Virus record (IMG/VR): IMGVR_UViG_3300027996_000082
Span: 1 to 37,392 of that record
Strand: one strand, 5' to 3'
Length of the DNA: 37,392 nucleotides
Origin: a virus
The translations under genes and the position numbers were made by a program. This document shows positions 844-37,383 of this stretch, piece after piece. The first letter of the stretch is position 1; each line of letters starts with the position of its first letter. A model generated the notes under the pieces. It ran no database searches. It worked only from the letters and a program-made list of their open reading frames with translations, and was not told the origin of the DNA.

Positions 844-3800
844 TATCTGTATGACATATTAAGTTTGGTATTATTCAATTTAAGAAGCATCTTCCTGTCT
901 CCAGAAACTACTCTTCTTAAGATCACCTTATTATAATAGTGTCTGAATTTTTTACGTTGCTCTTCAGGTTTATCATAATTTAAATTTAATGCATTTAAAT
1001 CACGTATATAGCCATTTAGTTGAGTTATAAATGCTTGCTCTTCTGAATTAGAAAATTCTCCTCTATCATTTGTTATATCCCAAAACTGATTAAATCTATA
1101 TTTTTGCTCTTCTTTTGAATAAAGTATTTTTATGTCATTTGGACCTATAATTGGATAAGTTATCATATTCAAAGGATCCTCTTTTGGATGAAGCTCTAAT
1201 TTTAACAAACCAGAAATCTGTTCACTATTATAAATAACAGACTCATCAAAATTAAAATCTAGATCGTGCCATCTATCATCCCCACATGTATCATGCAGAT
1301 CACCTTTATATACAAACGCCTCTAATTGATATTCTAAACTTCTTACAGTGTTCACCATTTGCCCAGTAGTCTCTATAAGTTCTATTTCCCAAGGATAATC
1401 AACACCATAGTAATTAGCATAAAGATCGCACCTATAATTGTGTTTCCAAATTGAACCTACTTTATAATTAGGTAATTCGGATACTAGCTTAAAATAGTTG
1501 CAGATCAGGGGATCTAGATTAACATAATCAAGATTTCCATTTGGACCAGTCTGATAAAGATCGTCACACCTTCCTGTTGTTGTTGTAGTTGCATTAAGAA
1601 CCGGGGGCTCTGGACAATTACAATCTACTAATCTACATATTGGGGGATTATCTGGATCACAAAGTGAATGGGCATTTGGTGGTATAGTATATCCATTGTT
1701 TGAATCCGGATATACCAAGCTATACCCTTCAGGACATTCACAACTACCAGCAGGTGCGGTTTCTATTTGTACACATTGCAGTTCACCTTCACAAAAACTT
1801 AAAGAGAATCCATCCGGGCATTGACAACCGCTAGGATCTCCAGATTGGAATGTTCCACCATTTAATGCAATTTCTTGTGTTGAGAATATCGTTATATCAG
1901 CAAGATCTCCAACTGTAGATACTACTGAAGGGTTTTGAAGTTCTGCAGAAGTAGCATCATATATCTCTGCACCAAAAGATGCAAAACTTCCGTCATTATA
2001 ACCTTGCACTTCAATAATATTTGTACCAGCCTCTAAATATATTGGAATAATATGAAACCAAGCAAAGTTATCATCATCTGCTGTGCCTCCAGTTGGATAA
2101 TTAAACTCAACAAAAAGTTGACCATTTACCTTAAATCTCATTCTATTATCTGCAGCTAAACCAACACAGTACTCCTTAGATTCCGGAACTTCAACACATT
2201 CAGTAAATCCTATCCACTCCTGTACTGGTATATGATTGCCACTGCCGTCTACTAGCCCAGTCCAAACACCTATATCATTTAATCTTTCACTCCACATTAG
2301 ATAATTGGCAGGAACGCCAGTAGGAGGTGGGGGTACGAGATTTAAGATTAAATCTTTTCCAAGCTCTACTCCTGTGCTATCTTGCAACATCATGGTTTGA
2401 TTTGGAATAGGCGGTCCTGATATCGCCACAGCTTCTATTACAGGATCTGTAGGTAAAGCAGGAATAGATCTGAATCTGGTAGTTTCGTAGAATATTGCAC
2501 CCCATTTACCATATGCAGCATTTGGAGGAGCCTGTATTACATTATAGATGATACCACAAATAATAGGAGCCGTTGTAATTCTTTCACAAGTTTCACTTGA
2601 TTCATTATAGGTGAATCCTGGAGGGCAACCATTTATTGTAGCTGCTGTTTCCAATACTGTAACAACAGCCGGTGCAGTTTCATCAATCAATAATTCACAA
2701 TTACCTGTAATAGGATTTAATATATATCCTGGAGGACACTGAGGCTCTTTTGTTTCTAAAGTTTTAGTTGTAAGAAAGTGTTCAACACTTGGCAAGCATA
2801 GATCAGGATGCCAATCATGAAATGATATCCAAGCTTTAGATTTAGGATCGTAGGATACAGTCCAACTACAATTATCAAAATACTCAGGATCTCCAACATC
2901 TATCTTTGTCCTTCCTACAAGGCTGACCAATCCGCCTTCTGGTGGTGGAGCACCTTCTACTGTTTGGAACTCCTCTTCTTCAGGTAAAAAAGTTATAATT
3001 CCCTTATATTTATCTTTAAGTTTAAAATCTTTTTTGCATATATAAACAATATCATCTGTTATGTCATATATGATTTGACAACCGACGCCAACAACAGGGT
3101 TATCACCCAATTCGCTTTCTTCCATTTCAGGAAATTGCTCTATAAGAATTGAAGGTAAATACTTATTGAACCACCATTTTAAACCTAAATTAGAAATAGG
3201 GTTAAGACCTTGACCACTTTGCTGGAAAATTTTTCCTTGTGCCTGTGATATAAAGAAGAAACCATAAGGAGTATTTATAACACCTCTTTGACTTTCACAA
3301 GATCCATACTCATTAGATAAATCAGAATTTACCAGACTTTGCATAGCTTGCGTAAATAAACCGCCATCCCCAAGAGTTAACTTAGTTCCAAGATCTGTTT
3401 CCAATTGATCTAATCCTTGGAACATTTGAGGTGACTGATATGGGAAGAATATAATAGCTCCACTTTTATTAATCGGTTTGATTACATTAACTCTATTTTT
3501 GAAATCTTTATAATTATTTTCTACGAATACTCTCCAAAAATCTTTTTTGCCTTCTTTTTGAGCTTGAAGAGAGTATATTAACCTTTTTGGATAATTTACA
3601 AAGCAGGTTTCTGCTACAAGCGGATCATAATCCCTAGCTTGGATGTTGCCGGCTGATGTTAAATTTGTTATAAATCTGCTCGAACTTAGTGAGTAATCAT
3701 ACTTATAGAAATTATCAGATTTTATAATTTCTGAATGAAAAATCTCAGAAGTTATATCAGTACCTGAATACCTAAAAGGATCATAATATCTTTTGTCCGG

Positions 3801-6800
3801 TCTATCTTCCCAATCTCTATTTGCTAAGTTTATTTCAGATTCTGTAAAAAAGTCAAGTATTCCGTTAACATGGGTATACATATATCCGTAACGCATGGCA
3901 AATATGCTGTTACCTTTTCTACCAGCAAATAAATCTAATATTGAAAAACCGCAAGAGCTCAATCCCCTATCTAAATAGAACAAATCATTTGGCATTGTGC
4001 TTCCCGCATCTTCAAGACCTAAAGTATAAAGTTTATCCACAAAATCGCTAACATCATATTTCCTAGTATTCATCCAGAATCTTGGATATGGAATGTTTTG
4101 TCTTTGTAAGTAATTATACGGATACTGATCAGGCTGGCCTAAAAGGAAGTCAGAGTATATTGGCATTATGACTTTTTCAGTATACCTATTTACATATGTA
4201 TCACCGCTAAATATTGGCGTAGTTTCATATTTATAACTATCAGGCAAACTTGTGTCAACTTCAAATAAGCAGTTTTGCATAACTGTCTGCTTAATACCAT
4301 CTATCTGACCATATTGATTTTCAAAATTAAACTTAGATGCCGCATAGTGCATTGTTACATTCTTTTTTTGGACCACCTCTGGATTGGCAAGGTAGGTATC
4401 TCCATAATCTGATGTAGCATCTCCCCCAATAGTATATCTAGAGTTATCTATTACACCAGAATATACATCAGGATCTTGAATTGCATCCTTTGATAATACT
4501 GCAACAGTATCTGGCCTATTGATGTTATTAATTTGAACATCTTCAGTATAAGCAACGTTTACGTTATTTAAATAAGCAAGCCTTTCAATTTTAGTTCTAA
4601 AAATGTCACCTTCTGCAATTTTAAAATAACTAAGCATTAGACACTGAGAATTAAACTTAAATGCAAAGTCTTCAGGAGAAGTCAACTTGTAGATTATATC
4701 TAAAATCTTCTGAGCCCCAAATACTATATTGCTTTTAAAAAGGGCAGTACCTAAAAATAGACCTAAGACACCCGGAACTTCAGAAGACGGATCTACTTTT
4801 TCCCTTGACTCACCCGCTCTTGTCCCCTTTCCACCAGGGAAAAGTCCACCAAGTGATTCAAAGGATGATAAAGCTGTATAAGCCAAATTTACAATAGCAG
4901 GAGATCCTGTTAGTGCAAGAGGTATCATTCCAGCACCTGTCGCCACCGGCAGTGCAAGTTGAGCTATGAGTTGGGCAGCTGAACTACCAACAGAACCAAG
5001 AGTATCTATAGGATTTGGCAAAACCTGGTTTTGAGTCACACCAACGTCATTGCTACCAGATGATCTTTTTCTAACACCTATTGCTGCTTGAATGGCGTAT
5101 CCCAATCCTACAATTATTCCAATAATTGTTGCTGAATTTCTAAGTAATACATTTTGAGGGTGCTTTTCAGATTTAATAAACTGACCAAGAGATCTACCAG
5201 ATAAAGCTCCATATACTCTTAATTCTGTAGTATTTAAAAACGGCCTTCTAAACATTAAATCTGGAGAATGAAATGTAAATAAACGTCTAGAATAACCTGT
5301 TAATGGTGGAAAGTTTATTTTAGAATCTGTAAAACTTTGCTCACAGCCATCTGTTCTAGGTTCTATATCAACAACAAGCGGAGACCATCCTGGAGCTCCA
5401 GATACATCTCCGGTACCATCATGATGATAAACATCCGCCCTTAAGTCATTATAAGGAAAGTTGGGATAAAATCCTTGCTTTGGTCCGAGGTTTCCTTGAT
5501 TATCCGGAATAGTAAATTTCCGCATATTTCTAATAACACCTTTTCCAATTATTGACTTGTTGCCTTCTCTTGATCCTCTTAGTATTTCATATCCTGCTAT
5601 ATTAGGAATTATAGTACCATCATTAAATTTTGGTATTTCTATATTGTTGAACTCAACACCCAAAATCCTTATTACCACTCCATCTTGCGATGATAATTGT
5701 AAACTTTCATGAGTTTCTTCAGTTGGAAACTTGTGATGTCTAATCTCTTTGCCACACAAGTCCGCCCATATATCAGGTCTAGTTGCAGGATATTTTTCAG
5801 TAGATTGCCAGTATGCCATTTGACCTCTGCTAATTATTGTACCACCATCTTCAGTTGGTTCACTTAATCCTACAGAATCTACAGTTGCTGTATTAAATAT
5901 TTGAAAATTATAGTTTGGGCCATTTATAGTGTTGGGTCCACCCACAACTACACCCGTTTCATCAACTAAAGTTCCAAATTGATTGTATCCGTTAAACTTA
6001 GGAGCTCTACCAGGAATATGATATGATGCAGATTTTTCACCTGTAGTATAAACCCATCGTATAAAAAATGAATATTGCTCATCTCTTAGGAACTGAGCTT
6101 TATTGCCTCCATTAAAGTAATAATCAGAAGGATATTCGGCAACTACCCAATTTGCTTTTATATTATTAGCCAAAGGTTGATAATTAAAATCAAATTGTTT
6201 TGTTGGTCCTTGCCTTATTAAGTAATCACTGACAACATACATTGATTCTGATTTCTCATATGCGGAAGCCCTTAAAAATAAAATATCTAAGCCAACAGGT
6301 TCCAAAGAAGGATCTATAAAATCAACAGATATAATAGACTGCTCTGTACTATATATGCCTAATACTTTTGCAACTTTAGCTCCTTGATTATCAGACAACA
6401 CAACGGCTTGGTAATATTCAAAACCTTTATCAAGATTTTCAACAAAGATTCTTAATGACCCAGTATTAATACTATGATCAAATAATGACTGGATATTAGA
6501 TACGGAAATATAATCAGTAACTCTTTGCTCATTTACTACATATGCAATGTATATCTGATAAGATCCATTTCTCAATTGACCTCCATTTTGATCTCTTTCT
6601 ACTCTAACGCAGGGCACACTCATTAAAGGCGCAAGTCTTAACTTTTCGCAATCTAAGTTTGGAGTGTCTTCATAAATTATACAATCTGCACCAGGAGGAG
6701 AAGTCACAACCTGTATATATGGAATGTCATCAAGATTTAAAGTTCTAGATGGATTTAGATTATCATCCCAATACACCTGCCAAGTGCAATCATAGTTTTC

Positions 6801-34966: not shown

Positions 34967-34980
34967 CTCTTACTATTATT

Positions 34981-35005
34981 ACCTTAAATTGTGATTATTT
35001 AAGGT
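34981..35005 (+). terminator. Terminator hairpin after the 103-residue transcript
   Basis: ACCTTAAAT (34981-34989) pairs perfectly with ATTTAAGGT (34997-35005) over a 7-base loop, followed by AAAATTTATTTATTTGTG. The stem is AT-rich and the T-run interrupted, so termination may be incomplete. It separates the upstream unit from the large RNA region. Confidence 0.6.
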
Positions 35006-35094
35006 AAAATTTATTTATTTGTGTCTGTGTTTGTTTGTTTGAGTACATAAACCAACAATTCAAGCACATTAAAACAAGTAAATAATCTGCTATG

Positions 35095-35112
35095 CTGTAT
35101 TATATATATAGC
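35095..35112 (+). promoter_or_regulatory. Candidate promoter for the large non-coding RNA
   Basis: CTGTATTATATATATAGC lies between the terminator and the first RNA helices. It resembles the minus-strand late motif (TTGTATATTATTATA) with a rearranged A/T core. A start near 35115-35120 would place the first helix (35123) at the 5' end of the transcript. Confidence 0.4.
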
Positions 35113-35122
35113 TAAATAAAAG

Positions 35123-35415
35123 GTTTAAGAGTAACTCCCTGAGTCTGATCAACTCTAAACTCTAAGGTTTGTGAAGTATAGTAGCACGCCTTGAACAACT
35201 AAGGTTAAGCCTGAAGACGTGCCCTAACGTGGCATGTCAGAGCAGGGACCTTAGCTGTTTGAAGTATTAAGGTTAGTAAACCATGACAAGCCTGTGGGGC
35301 TACTATCTATTTCTAAATTGTATGGGTTATATACAATTTAGTACTAAACATCATTACCCGATGAAATAGAAGTTAGTGCGGACGTAAAAATCAGGTAGAG
35401 AATAAACTCTTAAAC
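35123..35415 (+). ncRNA. Domain 1 of the large RNA, closed by a 10-bp long-range helix
   Basis: GTTTAAGAGT (35123-35132) is the exact complement of ACTCTTAAAC (35406-35415). Inside are hairpin 35141-35155; a long arm closed by ATAGTAGC (35178-35185) and GCTACTAT (35299-35306); a 12-bp helix (35194-35205 with 35248-35259, one mismatch); CCTG/CAGG (35210-35213, 35243-35246); an 8-bp hairpin 35216-35238; an 11-bp hairpin 35313-35341; and hairpin 35349-35363, whose loop TACC can pair with GGTA at 35394-35397. Confidence 0.7.
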
Positions 35416-35426
35416 ATACACAAATA

Positions 35427-35479
35427 CAAATCATTAAACTCACTATGATTTGCACTCTAAGGTTAGTGAGATAACCTTA
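35427..35479 (+). ncRNA. Two adjacent hairpins with complementary loops (kissing pair)
   Basis: CAAATCAT (35427-35434) pairs with ATGATTTG (35445-35452), and TAAGGTTA (35458-35465) pairs with TAACCTTA (35472-35479). The loop of the first contains CTCACT (35439-35444). The loop of the second, plus its closing base, is AGTGAG (35465-35470), the exact complement. Confidence 0.65.
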
Positions 35480-35485
35480 TAACCT

Positions 35486-35616
35486 AATATGTAAGTTAAG
35501 TGCCTACCTAAGTGTATGGTCTAACAAAAATCTTAACAAAATCATATTGACTTATTAATTGGATGTAGAGTCATCACTATGCTTGTAACTAGGCAAATGC
35601 TAAAATATTAATAAGT
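35486..35616 (+). ncRNA. Two further arms of the large RNA
   Basis: Arm one stacks AATATG/CATATT (35486-35491, 35543-35548), GTTAAG/CTTAAC (35495-35500, 35532-35537) and a hairpin at 35503-35519. Arm two is closed by ACTTATTAAT/ATTAATAAGT (35550-35559, 35607-35616) and holds a GATG/CATC hairpin (35562-35575). Its second loop, GTAACT (35585-35590), can pair with AGTTAC (35637-35642) outside the arm as a pseudoknot. Confidence 0.6.
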
Positions 35617-35658
35617 TTACTATTCTTAAAGTACTAAGTTACTAGTCAACGTCATCAT

Positions 35659-35766
35659 TAGTGTGTAGTACAGAGGAGAGGATACTCTATACTCTGAGCA
35701 ACCGTTCACCTTGTCGAGACTTAGAGTCCTCCCAGATGGAATCAAGATTCGGTTGCTTACACACTA
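35659..35766 (+). ncRNA. Perfectly packed three-way junction
   Basis: The closing helix TAGTGTGTA (35659-35667) with TACACACTA (35758-35766) leads over three bases to hairpin 35671-35696 (CAGAG/CTCTG, then AGAG/CTCT). With no gap, an arm follows, closed by AGCAACCG (35697-35704) and CGGTTGCT (35750-35757), which abuts the closing helix. The arm contains CTTG/CAAG (35710-35713, 35743-35746) and GACT/AGTC (35718-35728). Confidence 0.7.
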
Positions 35767-35772
35767 TGTTAT

Positions 35773-35836
35773 TATAAACTTATTCCCACTGAATAGATAG
35801 ACATATCTATTAGTTTTGCTGATGAGCAGGTTTATA
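35773..35836 (+). ncRNA. Second three-way junction, next to the tRNA-like domain
   Basis: TATAAAC (35773-35779) pairs with GTTTATA (35830-35836). Inside are AATAGATA/TATCTATT (35792-35799, 35804-35811) capped by GACA, and TGCT/AGCA (35817-35820, 35825-35828) capped by GATG. Confidence 0.65.
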
Positions 35837-35865
35837 GCCAAAGGTGGGTGTCATTAGAAATGATA

Positions 35866-35950
35866 GGGAAAGTTCGAACGTAGCTCCACAGCGTGAGTGG
35901 GAGCAGAGTATATTACGTTGGTTGTGTGGGTTCAAGTCCCACCTTTCCCA
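35866..35950 (+). ncRNA. tRNA-like domain without normal D and anticodon arms
   Basis: GGGAAAG (35866-35872) pairs with CTTTCCC (35943-35949), a perfect 7-bp acceptor stem with discriminator A. A canonical T-arm follows the rules: GTGGG, loop TTCAAGT, CCCAC (35926-35942). Between them there is no standard cloverleaf. Instead AACGTA (35877-35882) pairs with TACGTT (35914-35919), enclosing GCTCCAC/GTGGGAGC (35883-35889, 35897-35904, one bulged G) with the 7-base loop AGCGTGA, which lacks T33. CCA is not encoded. The arrangement recalls the tRNA-like end of tmRNA, which also lacks a D stem, but no tag frame is evident. Confidence 0.65.
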
Positions 35951-36040
35951 CAATAGAGGAGTTAACAGTCCTGAGGAGCAATGTTTACTATCGGACTAAT
36001 AGTTTAAATACTATTTAAAGATAATAGCATTAACTGTAAT

Positions 36041-36158
36041 CCTGCATCAGCTAGCTACTGATGTAGGTAAACTAAGGTGAGAATCCTTGGAACGTTTAAT
36101 ATATACCGTGGCTTATGTCTTTGTTATCTTTATCAACCTCTGAATATGTTGGTATATA
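36041..36158 (+). ncRNA. Hairpin series 3' of the tRNA-like domain
   Basis: CCTGCATCAG (36041-36050) pairs with CTGATGTAGG (36058-36067), 10 bp with one G-U and a 7-base loop. CTAAGG (36072-36077) pairs with CCTTGG (36085-36090), again with a 7-base loop. TATATACC (36100-36107) pairs with GGTATATA (36151-36158) and encloses 43 bases. Confidence 0.6.
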
Positions 36159-36217
36159 GGGTAAGCAAAGCATTAGTGTCTAAAGAATATATTATATGAG
36201 GAAAGAAAAATCTCTAT

Positions 36218-36325
36218 AAACAATAGTGTTTAAATACAGTTGTGTGTATTTACGTGAGCCTTCATCACGTTAAGATAAACCAGTAATGGGATAAAACAAT
36301 CACTCTAATTTGGAAGAGTGATTGT
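36218..36325 (+). ncRNA. Row of stable hairpins, including an 11-bp perfect stem
   Basis: AAACA/TGTTT (36218-36231), TAAATACA/TGTATTTA (36231-36252), CGTGA/TCACG with loop GCCTTCA (36253-36269) and ACAATCACTCT/AGAGTGATTGT (36296-36306, 36315-36325) follow in sequence. The last looks like a terminator stem, but no T-run follows (GATGTAG), so I treat it as part of the RNA. Confidence 0.65.
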
Positions 36326-36365
36326 GATGTAGTTAACGGCATTCAATAGAAAGGTATTATAACAT

Positions 36366-36531
36366 CTATATTTTGGAATGGGCCTACAGGCTGATAGAAA
36401 TATAGAGAATCTGACAGGCAGGTTCTTGAGATAGAAATATCAATAAGCGTTGTAATAAGTAACGGTAGTATAGTGTTGTCGCACTTGAAGCTGTTATTAA
36501 GTAATGAAACAGAGTGCTAAGAGAAATCTTG
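36366..36531 (+). ncRNA. Arm group with two GAAA tetraloop hairpins
   Basis: CTATATTT/AAATATAG (36366-36373, 36398-36405) holds GCC-TACA-GGC (36382-36391). GAATCTG/CAGGTTC (36407-36425) has a 5-base loop. GATA-GAAA-TATC (36430-36441) and TAAGA-GAAA-TCTTG (36518-36531) are GNRA-capped. GCACT/AGTGC (36481-36485, 36513-36517) stacks on CTGTT/AACAG (36491-36495, 36508-36512). Confidence 0.65.
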
Positions 36532-36574
36532 TGTTCACGTTTAGTTATTAGTGAGTAGCCTTGACAAGCAAAAG

Positions 36575-36651
36575 CAGGTAGGAGTAGTATCTAAGCATCT
36601 CAAAAGGATGTATGGTACAATAAACTCCAAATGCCTTCTACTAATTACCTG
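36575..36651 (+). ncRNA. Arm carrying an 11-nt GAAA-tetraloop-receptor motif
   Basis: CAGGTA/TACCTG (36575-36580, 36646-36651) and AGTA/TACT (36583-36586, 36639-36642) close the arm. Inside, helix GTATC/GGTAC (36587-36591, 36614-36618) leads into TCTAAG (36590-36595) opposite TATGG (36611-36615), then CATC/GATG (36596-36599, 36607-36610) with a 7-base loop. The consensus receptor is CCTAAG opposite TATGG; only the first C is replaced by T, which keeps a wobble pair. Confidence 0.7.
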
Positions 36652-36663
36652 AATCCTTTTTAA

Positions 36664-36841
36664 CCATGTGAAACATGGATCTAAACAAACAATAGAAAAA
36701 AGCAAAATTAATTTGGAGACTGTTGTGAGCCCTAAAGGCAACAATGGACTTATTCCTCTGTAATATGGGGACATAGAAGAACCGCAAGTTCAACTATGAA
36801 GGAATAAATTAGTATCTAGCTAAGAGAGGTGGTTCTCTCTT
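36664..36841 (+). ncRNA. 3' hairpin group of the large RNA
   Basis: CCATGT/ACATGG with a GAA loop (36664-36678). A TTGT/ACAA and GCC/GGC hairpin (36723-36744). TTATTCCT/AGGAATAA (36750-36757, 36800-36807) encloses CATAG/CTATG and GAAC/GTTC with a symmetric AA/AA internal loop and loop CGCAA. AAGAGAG/CTCTCTT (36822-36841) has a 6-base loop. Confidence 0.6.
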
Positions 36842-36881
36842 TATCTCGCCAGAGAAGTTGGTATGAAATTGAACTTATGAC

Positions 36882-37008
36882 CACAACAGTAGTGATGGCA
36901 AGCATCTTAACTTGTGTCTATGTGTACTACAATCAGAAATGGTTGTGTGAGTTAGTAAGGGAAACCTTAATCAACGTGCATATAAACAGTCAAACTCTCA
37001 GCTGTTTA
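36882..37008 (+). ncRNA. Last helices, including a third GAAA tetraloop
   Basis: CACAAC/GTTGTG (36882-36887, 36942-36947) encloses GTAGT/ACTAC (36889-36893, 36926-36930) and GATG/CATC (36894-36906). TAAGG-GAAA-CCTTA (36956-36969) is GNRA-capped. TAAACAG/CTGTTTA (36983-36989, 37002-37008) closes the series about 50 bases before the next start codon. Confidence 0.55.
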
Positions 37009-37055
37009 ATAACAAATCAAGTCAAATTAATGTTTCCACTTAAAAACCCTGAACA

Positions 37056-37346
37056 ATGACCAAATTATCACCAGAAGAATGGACAAAAAACCTTAGTCAA
37101 GATGTAGTAGTTCATTATACACAGCGTGTATGGGATGAACCTCTTACTGAAAAAGAAATAGAAGATTTTTTTGCAGGTAAAGGTGGAAAAAAAGAATATG
37201 TTGAAGTAGTCTTTAAATCCAAAGAGCGAGCAATAGAATTTGTTTGTCAGCGTGAACTTCTACCTAATGCTGAAAACTTCCATATAAATGGATTTAGAGT
37301 TCATTGGAACAAGAAACAACAAAGATTTTGGTTGGGTTTCTTGTAA
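37056..37346 (+). CDS. Small plus-strand protein (96 residues) after the RNA region
   Basis: A 96-residue soluble protein starting at ATG 37056 (MTKLSPEEWTKNLSQDVVVH). It has mixed helix and strand (EPLTEKEIEDFFAGKGGKKE, then YVEVVFKSKERAIEFVCQRE, ending NKKQQRFWLGFL) and reads like an alpha/beta fold with an aromatic C-terminus. No family is recognised. It is followed by a strong terminator and may be the coding end of the transcript carrying the large RNA, or be transcribed on its own. Confidence 0.7.
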   Translation: MTKLSPEEWTKNLSQDVVVHYTQRVWDEPLTEKEIEDFFAGKGGKKEYVEVVFKSKERAIEFVCQRELLPNAENFHINGFRVHWNKKQQRFWLGFL

Positions 37347-37351
37347 GAAAT

Positions 37352-37383
37352 AGAAACTACCTGCTAAATAGGTAGTTTCTTTT
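37352..37383 (+). terminator. Rho-independent terminator after the 96-residue gene
   Basis: AGAAACTACCT (37352-37362) pairs perfectly with AGGTAGTTTCT (37370-37380), 11 bp over a 7-base loop, followed by TTTACTATC. It starts a few bases after the stop codon. Confidence 0.85.

Follow-up and report, generated by a model that had tools for sequence, protein, structure and literature searches.

GOLLD is among the largest RNA-only structures known. In the cryo-EM structure of GOLLD env-38, a hollow 14-mer, each half-shell has a cap made by the 5' domain and a ring made by the 3' domain, and GOLLD levels go up as cells lyse (PMC12286853). ROOL, a large phage RNA found near tRNAs, also forms a cage (PMC12286853). 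Neither "crAss" nor "Bacteroid" appears in that paper, the most detailed on GOLLD that we found, and in the open literature, outside which subscription journals and preprints largely lie, we found no report of GOLLD joined with self-cleaving ribozymes. Because this coverage is thin and phages similar to those described here may be the source of the original lake-derived GOLLDs, our claim is of a variant and not of a new class. Specifically, what is new is a divergent GOLLD subfamily at one genome position, together with Pistol and twister ribozymes that abut its 3' end.

The window, by which we mean the whole 37.4-kb virus record analyzed, carries its late genes (terminase, portal, major head protein, and an amidase-type endolysin) on the minus strand, and the nearest relatives of its terminase are those of crAss-like and Flavobacterium phages, all at less than 60% identity (best, ~26%). 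The stretch 35115-37010 separates these late genes from a gene at 37056 that runs rightward. We read this stretch and its flanks, with a probability of roughly 80%, as a noncoding RNA transcription unit comprising a Hatchet ribozyme, a tRNA-like element, an element shared with other phages, a divergent GOLLD of ~930 nt, and one small gene, laid out as follows:

34980-35006, plus strand: inverted repeat resembling a terminator, ahead of the unit, TACCTTAAA...TTTAAGGTA followed by AT-rich sequence; read from the sequence
35095-35114, plus strand: conserved promoter-like box, ...TATTATATATATAGCTA, recognized by recurrence of its core; putative function
35115-35262, plus strand: structured leader (fold z = -2.5)
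35263-35396, plus strand: Hatchet ribozyme (RF02678), full length, 82.1 bits, above the gathering score of 51
35397-35835, plus strand: structured sequence of unknown kind, from folding only (z = -1.3 to -1.6), with a nested hairpin at ~35659-35768
35866-35950, plus strand: tRNA-like element, acceptor GGGAAAG/CTTTCCC, T-arm GTGGGTTCAAGTCCCAC, degenerate anticodon region
35954-36072, plus strand: small element X, hairpin CTGCATCAG...CTGATGTAG, common to loci L182 (E = 4e-11) and L186 (E = 2e-7)
36076-36576, plus strand: likely 5' domain of the large RNA, delimited by conservation; 36351-36499 covaries strongly
36577-37003, plus strand: GOLLD 3' domain (RF02032), full model 1-416, 71 bits, E = 1.8e-18, with covariation
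37056-37346, plus strand: 96-aa ORF, the first protein gene past the RNA, of no family and not conserved beside GOLLD elsewhere
37352-37380, plus strand: strong intrinsic terminator at the end of the unit, with a 12-bp stem, a T tail, and a mirror form on the other strand

A sequence-only reading of the window, taken to be from a crAss-like phage, had proposed that 35115-37010 holds no credible protein gene and that its plus strand encodes densely helical, structured noncoding RNA, and this was borne out. The only ORFs of at least 60 aa within the stretch are one of 77 aa on the minus strand and a GTG ORF of 76 aa on the plus strand, and their protein matches amount only to scraps of 27 to 36 aa in a relative that is homologous at the DNA level. 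Perfect helices of at least 8 bp within 300 nt numbered 33, versus 9.9 in dinucleotide shuffles, those of at least 9 bp 11 versus 2.7, and those of at least 10 bp 5 versus 0.7, with none of the 60 shuffles reaching the observed count in any class. The long-range helix singled out in that reading, 35123-35132 with 35406-35415, is a perfect 10-bp match that encloses the leader and the Hatchet. Single-sequence folding energy was only modestly below that of shuffles (mean z of -1.3 in 200-nt windows, versus -0.5 in coding DNA); hence, the real proof of structure lies in covariation among relatives.

The limits of the stretch are likewise well placed. A box ending in TATATATAGCTA, directly before it, recurs upstream of the noncoding regions of relatives; its core, TATATAGCTA, occurs 8 times on the plus strand of the equivalent upstream regions, versus 0.5 expected, with a shared ACCAC-rich flank. 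The 5' limit coincides with this promoter-like box, and the 3' limit with the end of GOLLD at ~37003-37010. The bracketing by a promoter and an upstream terminator proposed earlier thus corresponds to the conserved box ending at 35114 and the terminator-like hairpin at 34980-35006, the latter not called in a consensus terminator scan, as it has too few G-C pairs.

Judged by sequence, the large RNA at 36076-37010 is almost certainly homologous to GOLLD. Its 3' part, 427 nt long, aligns with RF02032 from one end of the model to the other (E = 3.1e-20 in the genome search), contrary to the initial view that no element assigns the region to GOLLD or ROOL. This match was revealed by a permissive Infernal scan of small loci, including 521 bases of the window, and the permissive Rfam scan of small loci also found GOLLD in three relatives (68-117 bits). 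Default Rfam scans of the window and 26 relatives returned no GOLLD, and neither did a scan at E ≤ 5 over 2.7 kb of the window; the idea of a new family, raised when default scans were blank, was dropped after the permissive match. GOLLD matches occur in 27 of the 41 contigs with the large RNA, 26 of them at the RNA itself (E ≤ 6e-13), and the relatives span 46 to 134 bits (best, 133.7 bits, E = 4.5e-39), with no match at E ≤ 1 in 14 control genomes. All of these scores, including that of the window, are below the Rfam gathering cut-off for GOLLD of 150 bits, a reporting cut-off and not a biological feature. Default scans therefore miss these RNAs, and we file them as a divergent subfamily, not as Rfam-accepted members. 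Rfam models only the 3' domain; 36076-36576 is the likely 5' domain, by its position, size, and covariation, and its first ~55 nt are common to L178, L179, and L180, where they lie just upstream of GOLLD. Further likenesses to GOLLD are the apparent division into two domains, of which the 5' one is the more variable, the length of ~0.8-0.9 kb, the phage-borne setting, and tRNA or tRNA-like neighbors (in the window, and as many tRNAs in L217), while the crAss-like phages, the fixed position divergent from the late genes, and the self-cleaving ribozymes around it set the present RNAs apart. Searching with Rfam models thus gave known-family matches for part of the region, Hatchet above its curated cut-off and GOLLD below; in contrast, ROOL had no covariance-model match at any threshold used, and group I and II introns, OLE, HEARO, and tmRNA had none in the region.

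Covariation, which had been put forward as the check to make among homologous regions, is strong in the GOLLD-like RNA. In a G-test with a tree-based null on 25 sequences, 16 pairs reached E ≤ 0.05 and 20 reached E ≤ 0.5, all of them within the RNAalifold structure and nearly always paired; the test, which ignores complementarity, is an R-scape-like procedure of our own rather than R-scape itself, and the alignment that it used also served to predict the structure. The 44 pairs of subdomain 36351-36499 are 92.7% paired, versus 34-47% when the partner is slid by 1 to 3 columns, and show 257 two-sided changes versus 78 in shuffles. The long-range helix of GOLLD is present in the window (ACTGTTGTG with CACAACAGT, ~36720-36728 with 36881-36889) and covaries, being different yet complementary in most of the 25 sequences. 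The strands at 36744-36749 and 36916-36921 form a second helix, which crosses the first and also covaries, and at the corresponding position the Rfam GOLLD consensus is complementary too (gugaC/Gucac). GNRA-type loops cap several of the hairpins, among them the one at 36779-36791, with GCAA in 24 of 25 sequences, in keeping with a compact tertiary fold.

These relatives were reached through terminase and portal searches, which yielded 144 loci; the flanking 96-aa protein, tried as a homology route, found no relatives. One contig, G001, shares 36142-37014 at 63% identity, with protein genes directly upstream of the RNA, and a profile subsequently added G007 and G002. Scanning IMG/VR with two degenerate motifs, together with a profile search, enlarged the collection to about 40 contigs (E values between 1e-262 and 1e-10). 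A crAss-type terminase is present in 29 of the 41 RNA-bearing contigs, the remainder being mostly short, and in all 29 contigs with both, the RNA lies on the strand opposite TerL and 5 to 20 kb upstream of it (one distance, in G007, was measured across the contig ends). Nearly all contigs carry one copy. Close relatives that lack the GOLLD-like RNA often have other noncoding stretches at the same place, and these did not match the models of this RNA. Among INPHARED phages, blastn with five family members as queries gave no matches, and nhmmer found no GOLLD-like RNA in phi14:2 (nearly the whole genome) or in half of the crAss001 genome. Weak R1 and R2 matches in reference phages were taken as chance, the R1 match in phi14:2 lying inside annotated genes, as were, by profile, all 27 motif matches in bacterial genomes.

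Stop-codon-recoded phages are among those that bear a GOLLD relative, with 11 in-frame TAG codons in the terminase gene of G101, and 6 and 8 in-frame TGA codons in those of G098 and G095, respectively. In L217 (the 153-kb contig G120), the GOLLD relative lies amid many tRNAs and a permuted tmRNA. The cultured crAss-like Cellulophaga phage phi14:2 (NC_021806; L260) has a gene desert at 2904-4602, in which ARAGORN calls a tmRNA at 4031-4500 (tag GSSVQKLAMVA; 46.0 bits versus an Rfam cut-off of 47), with the 1.1 kb ahead of it unassigned.

Upstream of GOLLD, the picture is one of separate modules. No homologues of the leader (35115-35262) were found, nor relatives of 35397-35835, and most of the 5' part has no relatives among 50-odd upstream regions; the Rfam filters that hide GOLLD may also have lost other families in 35397-36076. 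The Hatchet differs from described ones in standing at the start of a GOLLD-bearing unit and at its cut point, where C-U is expected at the base of P1 (PMC6154101). In the window, the nucleotides beside the expected cleavage point are off consensus, the alignment giving U-A or A-U, and, given this deviation, its cleavage may be slow or lost. L212 has another Hatchet upstream of its GOLLD, with C-U at the cut point if P1 starts at UUGAGG and with protein ORFs between the two RNAs; none above the cut-off was found in 87 close relatives. The element at 35866-35950 resembles tRNA (RF00005) in its intact acceptor stem and T-arm, but it scores 25.1 bits, below the gathering score of 29, has no normal anticodon arm, and is not called by ARAGORN. 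Nearby, 35840-35848 (AAAGGTGGG) can pair with 35942-35950 (CCCACCTTT) in competition with the T-arm and acceptor stem, a pairing that could be a switch or chance. Other tRNA-like elements adjoin GOLLD elsewhere, two upstream in L178 and one just after it in L166 (minus strand in both); they have good acceptor stems and T-arms, have odd anticodon regions, and are mostly missed by ARAGORN. Element X stands apart from GOLLD in L182, where 2.7 kb separates them, and in L186, and the 5' part is therefore modular. A motif in noncoding sequence upstream of GOLLD in L180, L186, and L212, CCTAAGCAAG.AGACAAA.TGCTT, is probably a further small RNA family.

At the other end of the RNA, known ribozymes follow the GOLLD match in several relatives, while none was found there in the window. 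Pistol starts 6 nt past the match in the near-identical phages G122 and G124 (and 280 nt past it in G099), and Twister-P1 starts 3 nt past it in G109 and G125, also near-identical to each other (57 bits, cut-off 67). Four contigs from two independent lineages thus carry a ribozyme 3 to 6 nt past the GOLLD 3' end, and two unrelated ribozymes at one junction suggest a shared role in forming that end, although ribozyme-driven maturation of GOLLD RNA is put forward here only tentatively.

The stretch 35115-37010 is a chain of several RNA modules. The sequence-only reading had offered an undescribed large class or a tandem set; the tandem set stands, and the undescribed class gives way to the GOLLD and Hatchet matches. 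That the whole ~1.9 kb is a single giant RNA of an undescribed class is very unlikely: the noncoding stretch is continuous on one strand, with excess helices throughout and a 10-bp helix spanning leader and Hatchet, but GOLLD stands alone in G001, element X is distant from it in L182, ORFs part it from Hatchet in L212, and, apart from the L212 Hatchet, nothing homologous to the 5' 0.85 kb is found near other GOLLDs. Since L212 and G001 have protein genes separating GOLLD from the upstream RNA elements, these parts need not act together. Still less probable is that the likeness to GOLLD reflects convergence or composition bias in a separate class. The window does score half of the curated cut-off, and the first, less permissive scan gave no match, yet full-length alignments at an identical place in 26 contigs, with E values down to 4.5e-39 and nothing in the control genomes, together with the conserved long-range helix and crossing-helix arms, argue for homology.

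A role mainly in cis, in which GOLLD and the rest would be an extended, structured 5' untranslated region controlling the genes that follow, beginning with the early gene at 37056, is improbable as well. GOLLD ends 52 nt ahead of that ORF with no terminator between, and rightward genes come after GOLLD in relatives too. However, a terminator follows this single ORF, the downstream gene varies by phage whereas 0.7-0.9 kb of the RNA are conserved, and in four relatives a self-cutting ribozyme lies between GOLLD and the next gene. The 96-aa protein was also considered as a GOLLD-binding protein and rejected, as it is unconserved beside GOLLD, belongs to no family, and gives a poor structure model. 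No conserved protein partner was found downstream of GOLLD across the relatives, which fits an RNA-only complex.

In the transcription unit that we favor, transcription would start at the promoter-like box near 35100 and end at the terminator at 37352-37380, passing in order through leader, Hatchet, unassigned structured RNA, tRNA-like element, element X, GOLLD, and the small gene. The primary transcript would be cut into separate RNAs, with Hatchet acting in the window, Pistol or twister acting at the 3' end of GOLLD in relatives, and tRNA-processing enzymes possibly contributing. The freed GOLLD would fold through its 5' and 3' domains and self-assemble, early in infection, into a hollow homo-oligomeric cage. 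Homology to env-38 leads us to expect such a cage, though we rate its assembly at about even odds. For cargo and benefit, the best candidates would be ribosome binding or the sequestration of RNAs, tRNA-like or otherwise. More speculatively, and on balance doubtfully, such cage RNAs might be self-maturing, with unrelated ribozymes (Pistol, twister, and perhaps the upstream Hatchet) recruited to excise GOLLD from an early transcript and the co-made tRNA-like and other modules acting as cargo or partners.

Distant GOLLDs such as these escape notice under the Rfam cut-off and default filters. With ~40 members at one fixed place, stop-codon-recoded phages included, they form a large comparative data set, and their genetic context, at the start of the rightward block and opposite the late genes, provides a setting for testing GOLLD function. 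Further, ribozymes a few bases past the end of the RNA suggest how the mature RNA is made.
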